The translations under genes were made by a program, and so were the position numbers. A DNA stretch of 36,842 nt from Acidimicrobiales bacterium. GTDB taxonomy: Bacteria > Actinomycetota > Acidimicrobiia > Acidimicrobiales > VFJN01. Below, piece by piece: positions 28,969 to 36,373 of the stretch (position 1 is the first letter of the stretch; each line of letters starts with the position of its first letter). The stretch covers positions 1-36,842 of the forward strand of contig JAUXRW010000094.1 in the NCBI GenBank assembly GCA_030681555.1, given 5' to 3'. The notes under the pieces are model-generated. The model was not told the origin of the DNA. It did not search any database and saw nothing but the letters and a program-made list of their open reading frames with translations.

Positions 28969-29958
28969 TCAGGGCTTCCGGGCCAGCGAGAGGGCGAAGT
29001 CGCCGGCCGCGTCGGTGAGCAGCCGGTCGAGCTCGAGGCCGGCCGCCGCCAGCTCGCCCTCGATCCGATGTCGCGTGAACTTCGCGCTGATCTCCGTGTG
29101 GAGCAGCTCGCCCTCCCCGAAGGTGAGGTCGAGGTCGAGCGCCTCGAGGCGGGCGGTCTGCCGCTCCTCGGAGCGCAGGTGCATCTCGATCCACTGCTCG
29201 TCGGCGTCCCACCGGGCGACGTGGGCGAACCGCTCGGGGATCAAGTTGCCGTCGAGCTCGCGGTTGAGCACGTGCAGCACGTTGCGGTTGAACTCGGCGG
29301 TGACGCCGGCGGCGTCGTCGTAGGCCCGGACGAGCCGCTCCGGCGCCTTCACGAGGTCGGTGCCGAGCAGGAGCCAGTCGCCCGGGGCGAGCTGGTCGGC
29401 CAGCTCGCCGAGCAGCTTCACCCGCCCTGCCGGGCCGAAGTTGCCGATCGTGCCCCCGAGGAACGCGACCAGCGTGGTGCCCTCCATCGGCAGCCGGCCG
29501 AGGTGACGGTCGAAGTCCCCGACGACGGCGTCCACGCGAGCCCTCGGGTACCGCTTGGCCAGCTCGGGCCCGGCGGCGCGGAGCACCGGCTCGCACACGT
29601 CGAACGGGACGATCCGCTGGAGGGTGCCCGCAACCGCCAACGCGTCGAGGAGGAGCTTCGTCTTCGTCGACGTGCCCGAGCCCAGCTCCAACAGCGTGGT
29701 CGCCCGGGTGCGCTCGGCGATGGCCTCCGCCTCGCGGCGAAGGATCTCGGTCTCGCAGCGGGTCGGGTAGTACTCCTCGAGGCGGGTGATCTGGTCGAAC
29801 AGCTCGGATCCGCGCTCGTCGTAGAACCACTTCGGCGGCAGGTGCTTGGCCGCCGCGGTGAGCCCGTCGAGGGCGTCCTGGCGCAGCGCCCGGGCGAGGT
29901 CGTCGGCGTCGAGGTGCACCTCGATCGTGCAGCGGGAGTGGATCGGGGTTCGGGTCAC
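28969..29958 (-). CDS. egtD: L-histidine N-alpha-methyltransferase EgtD
   Basis: A 329-residue cytoplasmic SAM methyltransferase that trimethylates histidine to hercynine, the first backbone step of ergothioneine synthesis. It shows the characteristic KWFYDERGSELFDQIT block (43-58), EEYYPTRCE (61-69), SAM loop LLELGSGTSTKT (89-100), DVCEP, GGTIGNF and YDDAAGVTAEFNRN. Length matches the family (about 320). It starts at GTG 29958 in a GTGA overlap with the egtC stop and closes the egtABCD run. The usual egtE, a PLP C-S lyase, does not follow; a stand-alone lyase elsewhere may serve. The acyl-CoA dehydrogenase downstream is separately promoted. Confidence 0.96.
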   Translation of the reverse strand: MTRTPIHSRCTIEVHLDADDLARALRQDALDGLTAAAKHLPPKWFYDERGSELFDQITRLEEYYPTRCETEILRREAEAIAERTRATTLLELGSGTSTKTKLLLDALAVAGTLQRIVPFDVCEPVLRAAGPELAKRYPRARVDAVVGDFDRHLGRLPMEGTTLVAFLGGTIGNFGPAGRVKLLGELADQLAPGDWLLLGTDLVKAPERLVRAYDDAAGVTAEFNRNVLHVLNRELDGNLIPERFAHVARWDADEQWIEMHLRSEERQTARLEALDLDLTFGEGELLHTEISAKFTRHRIEGELAAAGLELDRLLTDAAGDFALSLARKP

Positions 29959-30728
29959 AGCGGATCTCCGATGCTGGGGACGGCGACGACGTCGAGGCGG
30001 TCGCTCGTCGCCACCACCACCGATCCGTCGGCTACGGGCTCCCACGCAGGGTGGTCGTCGAGCGGCTCCGACGCCACTACCACGCCACCGTCGGCCAGGC
30101 CGGCGCCACGCAGGGTGAAGAGCGAGTTGCCGGACGCGGTGGCCGTGAGCGTGTGGCCGTCGCACAACAGGAAGTTCAGCCGCCCCCGGGTGGCGTCGAG
30201 GACGTCGGTGGTGACCTTGGTGAGGGCGGTGGGCGGTGGCACCCCTGCGTCGAGCTGGTCGAGCACGAGCGCGAAGAGCACCTCGGTGTCGGCGCTGCCC
30301 TCGATGCCGACGGACCGCTCCTCGGAGACGGCGCGGCGCAGGTGCTCCCCGATGGGCCCCCGGAAGCCGGTGACGAACCCGTTGAGGGAGAAGAGCCACG
30401 GACCCGAGACGAAGGGCGCGTTTCCCGTGGACACCACCGGCGACGGCGGCGTGGCGCTGCGGGTGGCCGCGACGATAGCGCCGGCGTGCACGAGCTCGGC
30501 CACCGACCGGAACGAGCGGTCCGTCCACATCGGCGCCGCCGTGCGGTAGCGGGCCGGTTCGGCGCGGCGCGCCGGATCCCACCAGCCCACCCCCCATCCA
30601 TCAGCGTTCATGGCCCCCTCGCGCTGGTGCTGCGGGCGCCACGACTGCCGCTCCAGGGAGTGGGGCGGCTCGTAGAGGAGCGAGGAGAGGGAGCGGGGTG
30701 GACCGAGGTAAGCCAGGTGGCGGCACAT
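29955..30728 (-). CDS. egtC: Gamma-glutamyl-hercynylcysteine sulfoxide hydrolase EgtC
   Basis: A 257-residue class II glutamine-amidotransferase-like Ntn hydrolase. It removes the gamma-glutamyl group from gamma-glutamylcysteine-hercynine sulfoxide. After Met removal the nucleophile is Cys2 (MCRHLAYLG). HQREGAMNADGWGVGWW and AGAIVAATRSATPP are conserved EgtC segments, and FSLNGFVTGF and SADTEVLFALVLD match the class II core. The ATG overlaps the egtB stop by one base (TGATG) and the stop overlaps egtD. The complete set of residues and the operon context make the assignment firm. Confidence 0.95.
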   Translation of the reverse strand: MCRHLAYLGPPRSLSSLLYEPPHSLERQSWRPQHQREGAMNADGWGVGWWDPARRAEPARYRTAAPMWTDRSFRSVAELVHAGAIVAATRSATPPSPVVSTGNAPFVSGPWLFSLNGFVTGFRGPIGEHLRRAVSEERSVGIEGSADTEVLFALVLDQLDAGVPPPTALTKVTTDVLDATRGRLNFLLCDGHTLTATASGNSLFTLRGAGLADGGVVVASEPLDDHPAWEPVADGSVVVATSDRLDVVAVPSIGDPL

Positions 30729-32110
30729 CAGGAGCCGATCCTCCGGGGGTCGACGTCGCGGGCACAGCGGAAGCCGGCGAAGATCTGTCGCCGGATGGGG
30801 AGGTCCCAGTTGCGGAAGGTGGTGCGGGCGGCGCTCGGGTGCGTGGCCCAGGAGCCCCCGCGCAGCACCTTGTACCCCGAGCCGTGGAAAACCGCCGAGT
30901 ATTCCTCGTAGGGGAACGCGGCGAAGCCCGGGTGGGGGCCGAACGGCGTGCTCGTCCACTCCCAGACGTCGCCGACCATCTGCTGGCAGCCGACCGCGCT
31001 GGCGCCGGCGGCATACGACCCGACGGCGGCCGGACCGCGGAGCCCGGTGGCGCCGAGCGCAGGGTGGGCCAGGTTGGCCAGCGTGGGGTCGGCGGGCGCG
31101 TCGCCCCACGGCCAGGTGCGGCTCGTGCTCGTGCCGGGGTGGAAGCGGGCGGCCTTCTCCCACTCGGCCTCGGTGGGCAGCCGCTTGCCGGCCCAGCGCG
31201 CGTAGGCACAGGCCTCGTGCCAGCACACGTGCTGCACGGGCTCGTGCGGGTCCAGCGCCTCCAGATGGCCGAACCGCAGTGCGGCCCACCCGTCGCCGTC
31301 GCGCTGCCAGAACTGCGGCGCCACCAGGCCCGCCTCCTGGCGCCACGCCCACCCGTCGGCTCCCCACCAACGTCGGTCGTCGTAGCCACCGGCGGCGACG
31401 AACGCCTGGTACTGCCCGTTCGTCACGGGTGCGACGTCCATCCAGAAGGCCCCCACCTGCACGACGTGGCACGGGCGCTCGTTGTCGTAGGCGAGCGGGT
31501 GGTCGGTCCCCATCTCGAACGGTCCGCCCGGGACGAGCACCGCGCCACTGCCCAGCTCGGCTGCACCGCTGCCCAGCTCCGTCACCGCCGGCGAGCGGGC
31601 GGCGGGCGCAGCGGCCGGGTCGAGGCGATGCCCCTCCCCCGGCGGGAGCAGCTGCACGGCGGCCAGGAGCGTCTCGACGTGCTGGTGCTCGTGCTGCACC
31701 ACCATCTCGTGCACGAACCCGTCGCGCAGGAGCGGTTCCGGTCCGTCGCTCGAAAGGTCAGCCCGGTGGAGCAGATCGAGGGCGCGGGCGCGCACGTCCT
31801 CGCCGTAGGCGCGGGCCTCCGCGAGCGTCATCAGCGGGAGCCGCTCCCGGTCCCGGCGCGGCTGCTTGAAGGCGTCGTAGGTGTCGTCGAGCCCGGTGCG
31901 GGTCGGCGGGCCACCGAGGGCCCGCACGAGCCACAGGTCCTCGTAGTTGGCCACGTGGGCCACGTCCCACACGAGCGGCGACATGAGGGGGTCGTGCTGG
32001 CGGCGCAGGATCGCGTCGTCGTAGGGACCCACGACGGCCAGCGTGCGGGCGCGGGCGCGCTCGAGCGACGAGGCCCGTGCGTCGGCGAGGTCGGCCAGGT
32101 CGATGGTCAC
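30728..32110 (-). CDS. egtB: Ergothioneine sulfoxide synthase EgtB
   Basis: A 460-residue non-heme iron enzyme that joins hercynine to gamma-glutamylcysteine with oxygen. The N-terminal DinB-like helical domain supplies the iron ligands His52 (VWDVAHVANYED), His140 and His144 (the HEHQH segment before VE). The C-terminal formylglycine-generating-enzyme-like domain begins around residue 195 (VPGGPFEMGTD) and contains KRLPTEAEWEKAA, QMVGDVWEWT and GSGYKVLRGGSW. It ends with FRNWDLPIRRQIFAGFRCARD. It starts at GTG 32110 in a four-base overlap with egtA. The use of gamma-glutamylcysteine rather than free cysteine is inferred from egtA and egtC being present. A GSGAAELGSGA duplication lies in the inter-domain linker. 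Confidence 0.95.
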   Translation of the reverse strand: MTIDLADLADARASSLERARARTLAVVGPYDDAILRRQHDPLMSPLVWDVAHVANYEDLWLVRALGGPPTRTGLDDTYDAFKQPRRDRERLPLMTLAEARAYGEDVRARALDLLHRADLSSDGPEPLLRDGFVHEMVVQHEHQHVETLLAAVQLLPPGEGHRLDPAAAPAARSPAVTELGSGAAELGSGAVLVPGGPFEMGTDHPLAYDNERPCHVVQVGAFWMDVAPVTNGQYQAFVAAGGYDDRRWWGADGWAWRQEAGLVAPQFWQRDGDGWAALRFGHLEALDPHEPVQHVCWHEACAYARWAGKRLPTEAEWEKAARFHPGTSTSRTWPWGDAPADPTLANLAHPALGATGLRGPAAVGSYAAGASAVGCQQMVGDVWEWTSTPFGPHPGFAAFPYEEYSAVFHGSGYKVLRGGSWATHPSAARTTFRNWDLPIRRQIFAGFRCARDVDPRRIGS

Positions 32111-33354
32111 GACCACTCCACCGCCTCCCCGGGCGGGTCGGCGAGGTCGGCGACGCCTGCCCCCCGTCGGAGGCGGTCCTCCAGGTCGTCGGCCGGGCAC
32201 CGGCCCCGAGCCGGCCACCGCTGGAGGGCGTCGTCAACGAGCTCGGCGAGGCGCTGGGTCTGCGGAACGCGGTCGAGCGCCTCGGCCGCGGCGCGGAGCG
32301 TGGCGGACGCGGCCTGCGCCAACCCCGGGTGCCTCGGCCCGTGGACGGCCGCATCGGCCCACGCGTCCGACACGGGCCGACACGCGTGCGCGGCGCACTC
32401 GGTGGCGTGGTCGTCGACGAGGACGGCGACGACCGCGGCGATGGCAACCTCCGCCAGCCCGGCGGGTAGGGCGTCGAGCCAGCGCAGCTCGAGCCACCCT
32501 CGGGGGCGCACGGGCGGGAACAGCGTCGTGCAGTGGTAGGTGAGGTCATCGAACGTCGGGCGGCGGCCGGCGATGCCCTCCTCCACCCAGTCGCCGAACC
32601 GGAGCGCGACGTCCATCGGGCGGCAGCGGCCGCGGTCGTCGTGCAGCAGCATGAGGTGGGCATCGAGGACGTAGGCCGGCCAGTCGTCCTGCAGCGAGCC
32701 CGACGCCAGCGCAGGGCCGGCGCGGGTGCGGTCGATGGCCTCCCAGATCCCCAGCCGCGTCCCGCGGTGCTCGCGGTCGGGCGAGCAGGCGAAGGCGGCT
32801 GCGAGCGCAGGCCCGATGTGGTGAGCGAGTTGCCATCGGCGATCCATGGTCGCCACGTCAGGACCGTGGTCGATGTTGACCTGGATGGACGCGCTGCCGG
32901 CCATCATCCGGCGGCCGGCGCCCCCCGTCCGGTCGAAGTACGCCTCCATGGCGTCGTATCTGGGCTGGCGAAGGGTGCGGACCGGGTCGCGGAACAGGTC
33001 GATGCCCGACGCGACGGTGGCTATGCCGGCACGGGCGAGCGCCTCACGGAGGACACCGCCGTCGACGCGCAGCGCCTCCACACCTGTCCACCACGGATCG
33101 AGCGGCGGCGTGGCCAGCTCGACCTGTCCGCCGGGCTCCACCGTGACGGTGCTGCCGAACGGGAGGGAGACCGCTTCCCCGGCGACGGCCAGGACCTCGT
33201 CGGGGTGCACGTGCCGATCGAGGTTGGTGACGCAGTAGGTGTGCCACTCCTGCTCGAGGCCGACGCGAAAAGGCCCTGACGAGGGCGCGGCGTCGACGGC
33301 TCGGAGCTGCTGGACGACGTCGCGCCTGGTCAGGGCGAGGCGGGGATCGGACAC
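32107..33354 (-). CDS. egtA: Glutamate-cysteine ligase EgtA
   Basis: A 415-residue enzyme of the GCS2 glutamate-cysteine ligase family, which makes gamma-glutamylcysteine for EgtB. Visible blocks are VGLEQEWHTY (ATP/Glu binding), VTVEPGGQVELATPP, AGSASIQVNIDHG and a C-terminal GWLELRWLDALPAG. The start GTG 33354 (VSDPRLALTRRDVVQQL) lies only two bases after the stop of a 26-codon ORF, so its translation is probably coupled to that ORF. An in-frame ATG at 33414 would overlap that ORF and lacks a ribosome binding site. Transcription order is small ORF-egtA-egtB-egtC-egtD with all stops and starts overlapping or nearly so. Confidence 0.93.
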   Translation of the reverse strand: MSDPRLALTRRDVVQQLRAVDAAPSSGPFRVGLEQEWHTYCVTNLDRHVHPDEVLAVAGEAVSLPFGSTVTVEPGGQVELATPPLDPWWTGVEALRVDGGVLREALARAGIATVASGIDLFRDPVRTLRQPRYDAMEAYFDRTGGAGRRMMAGSASIQVNIDHGPDVATMDRRWQLAHHIGPALAAAFACSPDREHRGTRLGIWEAIDRTRAGPALASGSLQDDWPAYVLDAHLMLLHDDRGRCRPMDVALRFGDWVEEGIAGRRPTFDDLTYHCTTLFPPVRPRGWLELRWLDALPAGLAEVAIAAVVAVLVDDHATECAAHACRPVSDAWADAAVHGPRHPGLAQAASATLRAAAEALDRVPQTQRLAELVDDALQRWPARGRCPADDLEDRLRRGAGVADLADPPGEAVEWS

Positions 33355-33356
33355 GC

Positions 33357-33437
33357 CTATCGGTGCCCGAACCGGGCCGCGACCCAGACGGCGTTGCGGA
33401 CCGGTGCGGTCCACACGGTGCGGTCGAGATCGACCAT
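33357..33437 (-). CDS. 26-codon small ORF at the head of the egt operon
   Basis: On the minus strand an ATG at 33437 opens MVDLDRTVWTAPVRNAVWV and ends AARFGHR before TAG at 33357-33359. AAGGGGG lies five bases upstream, the strongest ribosome binding site in this window. The stop is two bases from the egtA GTG. A probable TAGCCT -10 box (33484-33489) gives it a leader of about 40 bases. It may be a true small protein (amphipathic, two Trp, net basic), a translation-coupling leader, or a regulatory leader. It has no run of one amino acid that would suggest attenuation, though it contains four Arg. I do not recognise a family. Confidence 0.6.
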   Translation of the reverse strand: MVDLDRTVWTAPVRNAVWVAARFGHR

Positions 33438-33483
33438 GGCGTCCCCCTTGGTGATCGGGCGGTGGTGACGAGCGGTTCGGACG

Positions 33484-33489
33484 AGGCTA
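33484..33489 (-). promoter_or_regulatory. -10 box of the egt operon
   Basis: On the minus strand TAGCCT lies about 46 bases upstream of the small ORF start, within the gap after the helicase stop. A clear -35 box was not found. Confidence 0.4.
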
Positions 33490-33523
33490 GGTGGGGCCGT
33501 CGCCGAACCGGTGCAGGCCGGCA

Positions 33524-36373
33524 TCACGGTTCCACCGCTTCGCCGGTGTCTACGGAGCGGACGGAAGCGAGGATCTCCAGGATCTCCTCGCCGTAGGCCT
33601 CGAGCTTGGCCGGGCCGATGCCGGGACACATGCGCAGCTCTGCGAGGTCGGTCGGATGACGTTCGGCGATCCCGCCCAGGTGCTTGTCGGAGAGCACCAC
33701 GTAGGCCGGCACCTTGTCGGCGTTGGACCGCTCGAGGCGCCAGGCGCGCAGCGCTGCGTCGACCGCAGCCGCGTGGGGTGATGCAGGGCGGGCGAGGGTC
33801 AGTGGTGTGCCGTCCACCTGCACGCGCTCACCGAAGCGGACGAAGAACGACCCGCCGCCCGTGACGGCGAGCCGCACGCCCGTGTCGTCGATCAGGTCGA
33901 CCACTCCCTCGTAGCCCCCGAGCACGCGCAGCTGCTGCCCAACCGCCGCCGAGAGCGACGAGCGCTGCTCGACCGGGCGGCGGGCCGATGCGGGCTCGGA
34001 ACCGCGCGCCGGAAGCGGAGCGGCGGCAAGGTGGCCGTGCGGGGCGCGGCCGTCGAGCTCGGCCAGGAAGGGCGAAGGTCGGCTGCGGTCGCCGAGCACG
34101 AGCACGCTGTGCCGCCCCCGCGTGATGGCGACGTGCAGCACCCGCCGCTCCTCCTCGACGTCGCGGGCGAGGCGGTGCGGCATCAGGCCCTCGCTGGCGC
34201 CGAACACGACGACGCGGTCCCACTCCAGGCCCTTCACCCGGTGCACGGTGGACAGCACCACCCCGCCGGTCTGCCGCTCCCGATGGAAGGCCTTGCGGAG
34301 CCAGGGCTCGAACGAGCCTGCGTCGGGGTGCAGGTCGGCCACCTGCAACAGAGCCTCCAGGTCGTCGAGGTGCGAGCCGGTGGCACCGCCGCTGCTGTCG
34401 AGCAGGGTCATCGCCGAGCCGAGGCCGATGTCGTCGCGCACGGCCGTGAGCAGATCGCGGGCGGAGCCCCCGCGGCGGGCCAGGCCGGCCAAGCGGTCGA
34501 GGTCGGCCGCCAGGTCGTCGAGCTTGGCGCCCACCTTCGGGTCGTCGATGCGGGCGGCAGCCTGCCGGACGGCGTCGATCGACGTGCACCGGTCGAGCCA
34601 CTTGGTGGCCCACTGCGGCAGCCCGCGGCTGGGGCGACGGTGGACCTCGGCGAGGTCGCGCCCGTCGACCCGGTCGGGCGCCACCGCGATCCGTAGGTAG
34701 GCGAGCGCCGCCCGCACGCCGAGGCGGGACAGCACGCCCTCGTCGAGGATCGAGTCGATGGGCACGCCGGCCTCGGCCAGCGCGACGTGCGGCGCCAGCA
34801 GCAGTGACTGCACCCTCGTGAGCACGGCGACGTCGGTGGCGGTGACCTCCGGCTCACCGAGCCAGCCGGTGACCGCCTCCACCAGGGCCGCCGCCCCGGC
34901 GTCGGCGGCGTGGGTGCGCACCTCGAGGGACGCCGCATCGGTGCGCACGTCAGGGCCGGGGCGGATCTCCTTGGTCACCCGCCGCTCGTTGTAGGCGAGG
35001 AGCGTGCCGGCGGCCGCCGTGACCGGCGCGGGGCAGCGGTAGTTGACCTCCAGCGCGTGCTCGCGGGACCCCGGAAAGAACGAGGGGTAGTCGATGAGGA
35101 AGCGTGGGTCGGCCCCGGCGTGGCCGTAGATGCACTGGTCGTCGTCCCCCACGCCGAACACGTCGAACGTCGGGCAGGAGGCCAGGCGGACGAGCAGCAC
35201 GTGTGCGGGCGTGAGGTCCTGCAGCTCGTCGACCAGGAGGTGGCGGTGGTCGGCCTGCACGGCTCGTCGCAGCGCGCCGTCGCGCAACAGGGCCTCGACC
35301 GCGCCGTAGATCTGCTCGTCGAAGTCGATGACCCGTCGCCGCTGCAGCTCCTCGCGGTACGGGCCGTAGGCGGCGGCCAGCCCGGGGACGTCGTCGAGCA
35401 TCCCCTCCACGTCCTCCGGCCGCTGGAGCCCGAGCCGGATCAGGGACAGGCCGTCGAGGTACGGGGCGATCGGGTCGGTGTTCACCCGGCGCTGCTGCTT
35501 CGGTACCAGGCGCTCCACGATCGAGCGGACGTCCCGCTCGTCCAGCAGCTCGGGGCGCCGGCCGGACGCCCGGGCGAGGATCGAGTTGCCCCACGCGTTC
35601 AGCGTCTGGATCCGGGCGCCCAGGCCGGGCAGCCGGCTGGTCATCTCCTCCTGGGCCGCCTTGTTGTACGCCAGCGCCAGGACGGATTCGCGCTCGTAGG
35701 CGCGATCGGCGAGCAGGTGGCGCAGCCGCTCCGTGAGGACGCGCGTCTTTCCCGACCCGGCCGGGGCGACGATCCGAGCCGGGCCGGCGCCGTGCCCGAC
35801 GGCGGCGAGCTGGTCGGGCGCGAGGGGCGCCGTCGGCGGGACCGGCGGCGGCTGGGGGCGGAGCGAGCCGAGCTCCACGCTCTCGCGGTGGACCACGGCG
35901 GCACCGGCCAACGGCGACTCGAGGGGCGCGCGGGGACCACCGTCGATCCAGGCCGCGCCGCCGTCGGGCAGCGTCACGTCTCCCGGTCCGTCCACCGCCT
36001 CCACCGCTCCGAGGCGGGCCGCCTTCCTCGCCCACCACCACACGGGCTCGCCGGGCGCCTGCACGTCGTAGCTGTTGGCCCAGACCAGGAAGTGGAGCCG
36101 GTCGGCCCAGGGGTCGAACCCGGCCCCCAGGACCCACGGCTCGTCGTCGAACGCCGGGGGAGCGCGGAACTGCGCGGCGTCGGCCGCCAGCTCGATCACG
36201 ACGGGCTCCCGGCCGGCCCACGCGTCGTGCAGGCGCCGCACCACCGAGGCCGGGTCGGCAACCGCCGCGTCGTCGACGACCACCCGGGCCGCATCGGCCC
36301 ATGAGGCCGGTGCGGCCGCGCCTGCGGCCACGATCACAGCGCGACCGAGCTCCGGAGGACCAGGTGCGACCAC
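33524..36373 (-). CDS. UvrD/Rep-family DNA helicase with HRDC domain and unassigned N-terminal domain
   Basis: A 949-residue superfamily 1A helicase. After an N-terminal region of about 185 residues that I cannot place (Trp-rich, with WVLGAGFDPWADRLHFLVW and VWWWARKAARLGA) comes the motor. Its motifs are I APAGSGKT, Ia ALAYNKAAQEEM, II DELQD (normally DEFQD), III GVGDDDQCIYG, IV NYRCP, V STVHRVKGLEWD and VI HVAITRGR. A C-terminal HRDC domain (about residues 880-940, VPAYVVLSDKHLGGIAE and MCPGIGPAKLEAYG) binds DNA, as in actinobacterial UvrD2. It likely unwinds 3'-5' in repair or replication restart. The start is GTG 36373, 6 bases after a TACCCT -10 box (leaderless). Confidence 0.9.
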   Translation of the reverse strand: MVAPGPPELGRAVIVAAGAAAPASWADAARVVVDDAAVADPASVVRRLHDAWAGREPVVIELAADAAQFRAPPAFDDEPWVLGAGFDPWADRLHFLVWANSYDVQAPGEPVWWWARKAARLGAVEAVDGPGDVTLPDGGAAWIDGGPRAPLESPLAGAAVVHRESVELGSLRPQPPPVPPTAPLAPDQLAAVGHGAGPARIVAPAGSGKTRVLTERLRHLLADRAYERESVLALAYNKAAQEEMTSRLPGLGARIQTLNAWGNSILARASGRRPELLDERDVRSIVERLVPKQQRRVNTDPIAPYLDGLSLIRLGLQRPEDVEGMLDDVPGLAAAYGPYREELQRRRVIDFDEQIYGAVEALLRDGALRRAVQADHRHLLVDELQDLTPAHVLLVRLASCPTFDVFGVGDDDQCIYGHAGADPRFLIDYPSFFPGSREHALEVNYRCPAPVTAAAGTLLAYNERRVTKEIRPGPDVRTDAASLEVRTHAADAGAAALVEAVTGWLGEPEVTATDVAVLTRVQSLLLAPHVALAEAGVPIDSILDEGVLSRLGVRAALAYLRIAVAPDRVDGRDLAEVHRRPSRGLPQWATKWLDRCTSIDAVRQAAARIDDPKVGAKLDDLAADLDRLAGLARRGGSARDLLTAVRDDIGLGSAMTLLDSSGGATGSHLDDLEALLQVADLHPDAGSFEPWLRKAFHRERQTGGVVLSTVHRVKGLEWDRVVVFGASEGLMPHRLARDVEEERRVLHVAITRGRHSVLVLGDRSRPSPFLAELDGRAPHGHLAAAPLPARGSEPASARRPVEQRSSLSAAVGQQLRVLGGYEGVVDLIDDTGVRLAVTGGGSFFVRFGERVQVDGTPLTLARPASPHAAAVDAALRAWRLERSNADKVPAYVVLSDKHLGGIAERHPTDLAELRMCPGIGPAKLEAYGEEILEILASVRSVDTGEAVEP

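Follow-up and report, generated by a model that had tools for sequence, protein, structure and literature searches.

What does a 26-codon open reading frame (ORF) do that ends immediately ahead of the ergothioneine gene egtA in a bacterium of the Acidimicrobiales? The ORF lies on the minus strand of the window, by which we mean the whole stretch of 36,842 nucleotides that was analysed, and runs from ATG 33437 to TAG 33359-33357 (26 codons plus stop), with the product MVDLDRTVWTAPVRNAVWVAARFGHR; a gap of two bases (GC) separates its stop codon from the GTG of egtA at 33354, just as a preliminary description of this DNA had stated. The gene order after the leader is egtA, egtB, egtC, egtD, and a UvrD/Rep-type helicase gene lies upstream of it on the same strand (see the table). 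The computed duplex with the anti-Shine-Dalgarno (SD) sequence is -10.3 kcal/mol at the ATG of the leader vs -3.4 kcal/mol at the GTG of egtA, and 3.3% of the window's 599 ATGs, counted on both strands, have an SD as strong as that of the leader. Two details of the preliminary description need correction: the SD of the leader is strong but not the strongest, given that GTG 32119, near the start of egtB, reaches -10.8 kcal/mol, and the codon at 33414 that it named as an alternative ATG start of egtA is a GTG, which lies in frame with egtA and has an SD energy of 0.0 kcal/mol.

Features of the leader and of the egt operon in the window
Feature	Position	Strand	Evidence
Leader ORF, MVDLDRTVWTAPVRNAVWVAARFGHR	33357..33437	-	A1 profile match, E 1e-12 (the window peptide is one row of A1)
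Conserved 18-residue C-terminal core WTAPVRNAVWVAARFGHR, abutting the stop codon	33360..33413	-	Sequence comparison
SD-like AAGGGGG, 5-nt spacer to ATG 33437	33443..33449	-	Duplex -10.3 kcal/mol
egtA (GTG 33354), glutamate-cysteine ligase of ergothioneine synthesis	32107..33354	-	TIGR03444, 327.8 bits, E 8e-98 (a TIGR03444 relative, under the cut-off of 370.8); PF04107; weak own SD, -3.4 kcal/mol
egtB (start approximate)	30728..32119	-	TIGR03440, 394 bits, over cut-off
egtC (start approximate)	29955..30740	-	TIGR03442, 254.1 bits, over cut-off
egtD (conserved domain only)	28969..29886	-	TIGR03438, 336.5 bits, over cut-off, residues 238-538 of the ORF starting at 30597

So is the encoded peptide conserved? 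Its absence from relatives had been named in advance as grounds for abandoning the idea, and what we found instead is that many families have kept the peptide together with its SD-led start and with the coupling to the first egt gene. With the window peptide as the query, 148 genomes of the class yielded matches next to egtA homologues in other families. A profile, A1, comprising 18 peptides with the window peptide among them, yielded 28 matches at E <= 2.1e-3 in 395 class genomes, all 28 of which adjoin egtA or egtB, so that none lies away from the head of an egt operon at this threshold; the weaker A1 matches that were examined (E > 2.1e-3; L085 and L086) have no egt gene. In a set of 396 genomes from the phylum, A1 retrieved nothing better than 1.2e-3 beyond the window's own genome, and that best match has no egt gene nearby; the 12 egtA loci of other phylum members for which the start region is covered share no coupled ORF (13 such loci were compared, L300-L312, the match of L312 beginning only at query residue 146). 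The DNA pattern for W..PVRN..WV[AST][AST] matched 24 loci of the named genome collection, with an egt gene following directly in 20; L123, L129 and L136 have neither start nor SD nor egt genes and look like chance, and L140 looks genuine, the available sequence ending 77 bases downstream. Altogether, the peptide is found immediately ahead of the first ergothioneine gene in 31 examined genomes from 18 family codes, and G154 and G210 are carriers beyond this tally.

The 40 distinct versions of the peptide have a C-terminal core with the consensus W-x-A-P-V-R-N-x-x-W-V-A-A-x-F-G-H-R-stop, in which Trp at position 10 is invariant, Arg at position 6 is found in 39 versions, positions 1 (Trp) and 4 (Pro) are each conserved in 35, and position 7 is occupied by Asn in 35 and by Asp in five. 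From the invariant Trp to the stop codon there are exactly nine residues in 38 versions and 11 in two, even as the four at the very end vary (FGHR, FGYR, FGHS, VGTA, IGRG, FGLG and others); the N-terminus is variable and unconserved, and the length ranges from 23 to 49 residues. The SD of the leader is stronger than that of the gene in 38/40 cases, with means of -10.4 and -3.95 kcal/mol, respectively (the SD energies at loci without the peptide are the best of several starts and are not comparable to these one to one), and the distance from the leader stop to the gene start is -4 to +7 nt in 39/40 and +12 in the remaining one. Conserved residues at a fixed distance from the stop codon combined with a free N-terminus are the sequence hallmark of ribosome arrest peptides, and a short ORF that is conserved as a peptide and immediately precedes the first gene of an operon is that of leader peptides or upstream ORFs (uORFs); both are found here. 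The 40 distinct peptides contain no RAPP/RAPG or Pro-Pro at the C-terminal end, nor is any known arrest motif, such as RAPP, present in the leader peptides.

The substitution pattern indicates on what level selection operates. In the frame of the ORF, mean pS is 0.556 and mean pN is 0.273 (averaged over 780 pairs of related, hence non-independent, sequences), and pN exceeds pS when the frame is shifted or the reverse complement is read. Close pairs show the same in miniature, with silent and amino-acid changes numbering 6/0 (L139/L125), 5/0 (L215/L214), 3/0 (L130/L124), 8/4 (L226/L227) and 6/5 (L230/L221). Folded singly against shuffled sequences, the 40 leaders give a mean z of 0.08 (sd 1.04), with no sign of structure, and their joint alignment reveals no RNA structure either, the alignment being gappy and the test accordingly weak. 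Positions 33200-33650 contain no terminator-like site, no promoter match was found, and the sole Rfam match, on the opposite strand within the helicase gene, is nhaA-II, with 18.7 bits against the 70.4 required (E 2.5). It is the peptide, and not a detectable RNA fold, that is under selection.

How, then, is the peptide distributed over the different forms of the operon? We scanned the region from -300 to +60 of the first egt gene at nearly all egtB loci, which come from 101 of the 395 class genomes, and at other egt loci, using a scoring matrix built from 18 of the 40 peptide versions. The scores are bimodal, either 7.7 to 62 or <= 0, the best of 425 control windows reaching 2.5; the 22 versions outside the training set score 7.7 to 55.4, all above that best control. 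Among genomes with egtA first, 22 have the peptide and 19 lack it, the start region lying beyond the available sequence in two more; among the 52 genomes in which a type II egtB comes first (an egtB being called type II solely by its best tblastn query, one of two egtB sequences from egtB-first operons), nine have it and 43 do not; and all 19 genomes with a type I egtB first lack it at that position, some of them (for example G034, G239 and G262) carrying egtA with its leader on a separate contig. The DNA pattern found the peptide ahead of a type I egtB in L121. The long leaders of type II egtB share a further stretch ahead of the core, as seen in L173 (RRPSSICPW), L135 (RRASSIRVW), L053 (SPRPPSSVCPW) and L189 (RPPASQQRW).

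None of the nine type II genomes that carry the peptide has an EgtA detectable at E <= 1e-10 (assembly completeness 80 to 100%). The peptide thus is not a subunit of EgtA, and this candidate function was rejected; occurring before egtA or before an egtB where no EgtA was detected, the peptide is a feature of the ergothioneine operon head rather than of EgtA. No EgtA was detected either in six genomes with a type I egtB (G065, G113, G124, G171, G204 and G175, of family codes f60 and f55; example loci L236, L235, L242, L255, L248 and L245), the EgtB of which may use cysteine directly, unless their EgtA is too divergent for detection.

The closest relatives of the window (G001-G003) have the peptide nowhere in the genome (E above 0.3). 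In the same-genus loci L003 and L004 (G003 and G002), the start of egtA lies within the stop codon (ATGA) of another upstream ORF, and L005 (G001) is similar, so that in these genomes coupling has been retained and the leader peptide is gone. Given that many egt loci, those of G001-G003 included, are missing the peptide, the pathway does not need it. On a tree of EgtA with 45 rows, 26 of them with the peptide, the trait requires at least nine changes scattered over deep branches, and for this reason the leader looks old and repeatedly lost; gains by transfer are also compatible with the tree. Where the peptide is missing, short SD-led ORFs of other sequence terminate close to the gene at a few loci (for example G046 and L007, the latter with the product MSDRLAARRRTRLGTRGSPA); no shared sequence was seen among them. 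In L017 an SD-led 13-codon ORF, MLERSSDYPDFIP, likewise unrelated to the leader peptide, overlaps the ATG of egtA. Judging by the unrelated ORFs at the egtA start in L007 and L017, coupling by short ORFs may extend beyond this peptide.

The interpretation that we favour, and consider fairly probable on the strength of these comparisons, is that the ORF encodes a cis-acting, translationally coupled leader peptide, that is, a regulatory uORF heading ergothioneine operons, the C-terminus of which pauses the terminating ribosome and in this way gates egt translation. Most ribosomes that translate egtA (or egtB) would be ones that have terminated on the leader and restarted. When the stop codon is in the decoding position, the R-N-x-x-W motif, 9 to 13 residues away, would sit in the exit tunnel and might, under some condition, slow or arrest termination. 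A ribosome held at the stop of the leader would cover the egt start codon, and we propose that arrest therefore lowers egt translation and release allows it. A first guess at the signal would be a metabolite of the pathway, such as ergothioneine, hercynine, histidine, cysteine or S-adenosylmethionine. A bolder version, to which we would give a rather small chance, holds that the nascent peptide is itself the direct sensor of ergothioneine or an intermediate, such that, with the metabolite present, a ribosome arrested at the stop codon blocks access to the start of egtA or egtB and the pathway is subject to feedback; if true, a nascent-peptide sensor would be a single device serving two different operon forms.

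Both options of the preliminary description, an unannotated small protein or a leader gating egt expression, draw support from the conservation of the peptide, so what could tell them apart? A tiny trans-acting accessory protein or regulator of EgtB or EgtD, co-produced through translational coupling, would account for selection on the amino acid sequence and for the fact that the matches at E <= 2.1e-3 are always beside egt genes; the enzymes that both operon forms share are EgtB and EgtD (the latter recognised by eye from ORF lists in type II loci), and such a protein, if encoded first in the operon, would give much of the same pattern. Against it, the peptide at that threshold is never found off the operon head in the 395 genomes; moreover, close relatives with intact egtA and egtB have no peptide, and the distance to the stop is kept although the last residues change. 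The leader fits better because the peptide stays at the head of the operon, before egtA or egtB, even where no EgtA is detected, and we regard a trans-acting protein as a doubtful alternative, albeit the main one. The leader might also respond to codon supply, in which case a shortage of charged tRNA for Trp, His, Arg or another amino acid would stall its translation and alter egt expression. All 40 peptides contain Trp (one to three residues each) and 32 contain His, and leader peptides of actinobacteria in which Cys codons form runs provide a precedent (PMC1262725). Yet there is no run of any one codon in the leaders, Cys is present in only 10/40 and makes up 1.1% of the residues, no terminator or alternative hairpin was found, and the conservation of P, V, R and N together with the fixed spacing would be left unexplained, which makes this mechanism improbable.

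It might further be supposed that the ORF merely loads ribosomes, coupling being all that matters and the peptide being irrelevant. The weak SD of egtA next to the strong one of the leader would suit this explanation, as would the overlap of egtA with the end of another upstream ORF in G001-G003 and the coupled small ORFs with non-conserved peptides reported in mycobacteria (PMC4633059, in the sections concerned with such ORFs); the strong conservation of the peptide sequence speaks against it, and we consider it very improbable. Finally, short ORFs are common in the GC-rich DNA here, and the ORF might be fortuitous or the remnant of a broken or frameshifted N-terminus of EgtA. A chance ORF is rejected by the conservation of the peptide, and an N-terminal extension or frameshift of EgtA because the gene occupies all three frames relative to the leader (15, 9 and 16 of the versions); the occurrence of the peptide before egtB, too, leaves these possibilities scarcely credible.

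Does the leader belong to any family already described? Three peptides of the family have no match in NCBIfam, and in Pfam the best match is GvpG, with 13.0 bits against a cut-off of 30.6 (E 0.12, for the window peptide); GvpG was matched by two of the three peptides tested (E 0.12 and 0.19). A true GvpG (gas vesicle protein G; L280) has LLLPFAPVRGSGWVMGQV near its N-terminus and thus APVR-x-x-x-WV in common with the leader peptide, a likeness that is probably due to chance and that we keep as a lead only. Among solved structures, no chain matched at E up to 10. Searches, at the level of search results and mainly of open-access literature, for ergothioneine in combination with leader peptide, small ORF or Acidimicrobiia, and on the words of the peptide, turned up no such leader or description; in the searches made, then, there is neither a leader peptide or uORF for ergothioneine synthesis nor a named family for this peptide. 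Because of their small size, the genes of this family tend to escape standard annotation. The retention of the peptide over 18 family codes, at the head of both EgtA-dependent and EgtA-less operons, suggests that control lies with the translating ribosome, and with a leader of 26 codons, the sensing or limiting of ergothioneine in bacteria becomes directly testable.

Among known systems, tryptophanase control, that of the tna operon, works via transcription termination. TnaC is 24 residues long and needs its Trp12; the segment that is ordered, from the peptidyl transferase centre to the constriction of the tunnel, comprises residues 9-24, and residues 1-8 contribute negligibly (PMC8429421). 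TnaC and the egt leader are alike, as far as that account extends, in being short and located at the head of an operon, in the importance of the C-terminal half, in a key Trp and in an N-terminus that matters little (PMC8429421); the TnaC pattern is C-terminal conservation at a set distance from the codon being decoded, the N-terminus being unimportant, and we count it in favour of arrest. In contrast to TnaC, to which it has no sequence relation, the egt leader is separated from the next gene by a few bases, no terminator was found, and its arrest is a prediction.

Within the actinobacteria, polycysteine leader ORFs of mycobacterial cys operons were reportedly described by Canestrari in 2020. 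Judging from the relevant parts of PMC9031893 and PMC1262725, these are likewise small actinobacterial ORFs controlling the sulfur-metabolism operon that follows, although they read cysteine codons and are leaderless, whereas the egt leader is SD-led and has no Cys run. ApcA and ApdA of actinobacteria carry RAPP/RAPG, and ApcA also transmembrane segments, neither of which the egt leader has; what these arrest peptides share with it, in the portion of PMC7897499 that deals with them, is a conserved C-terminus and a place upstream of the presumed controlled gene. The case for the copper uORF CruR (DUF2946) was argued, in the pertinent section of PMC9426467, from its first-in-operon position and conserved motif spacing. 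With 145 residues, CXXC and RAPP motifs and action through Rho, CruR differs from the egt leader, which has neither motif; the likeness, within the same section, is that of a conserved uORF family that comes first in the operons of one pathway and displays conserved motif spacing (PMC9426467). Unless ligand sensing is shown, we rate the egt leader not as a new principle but as a new uORF family.
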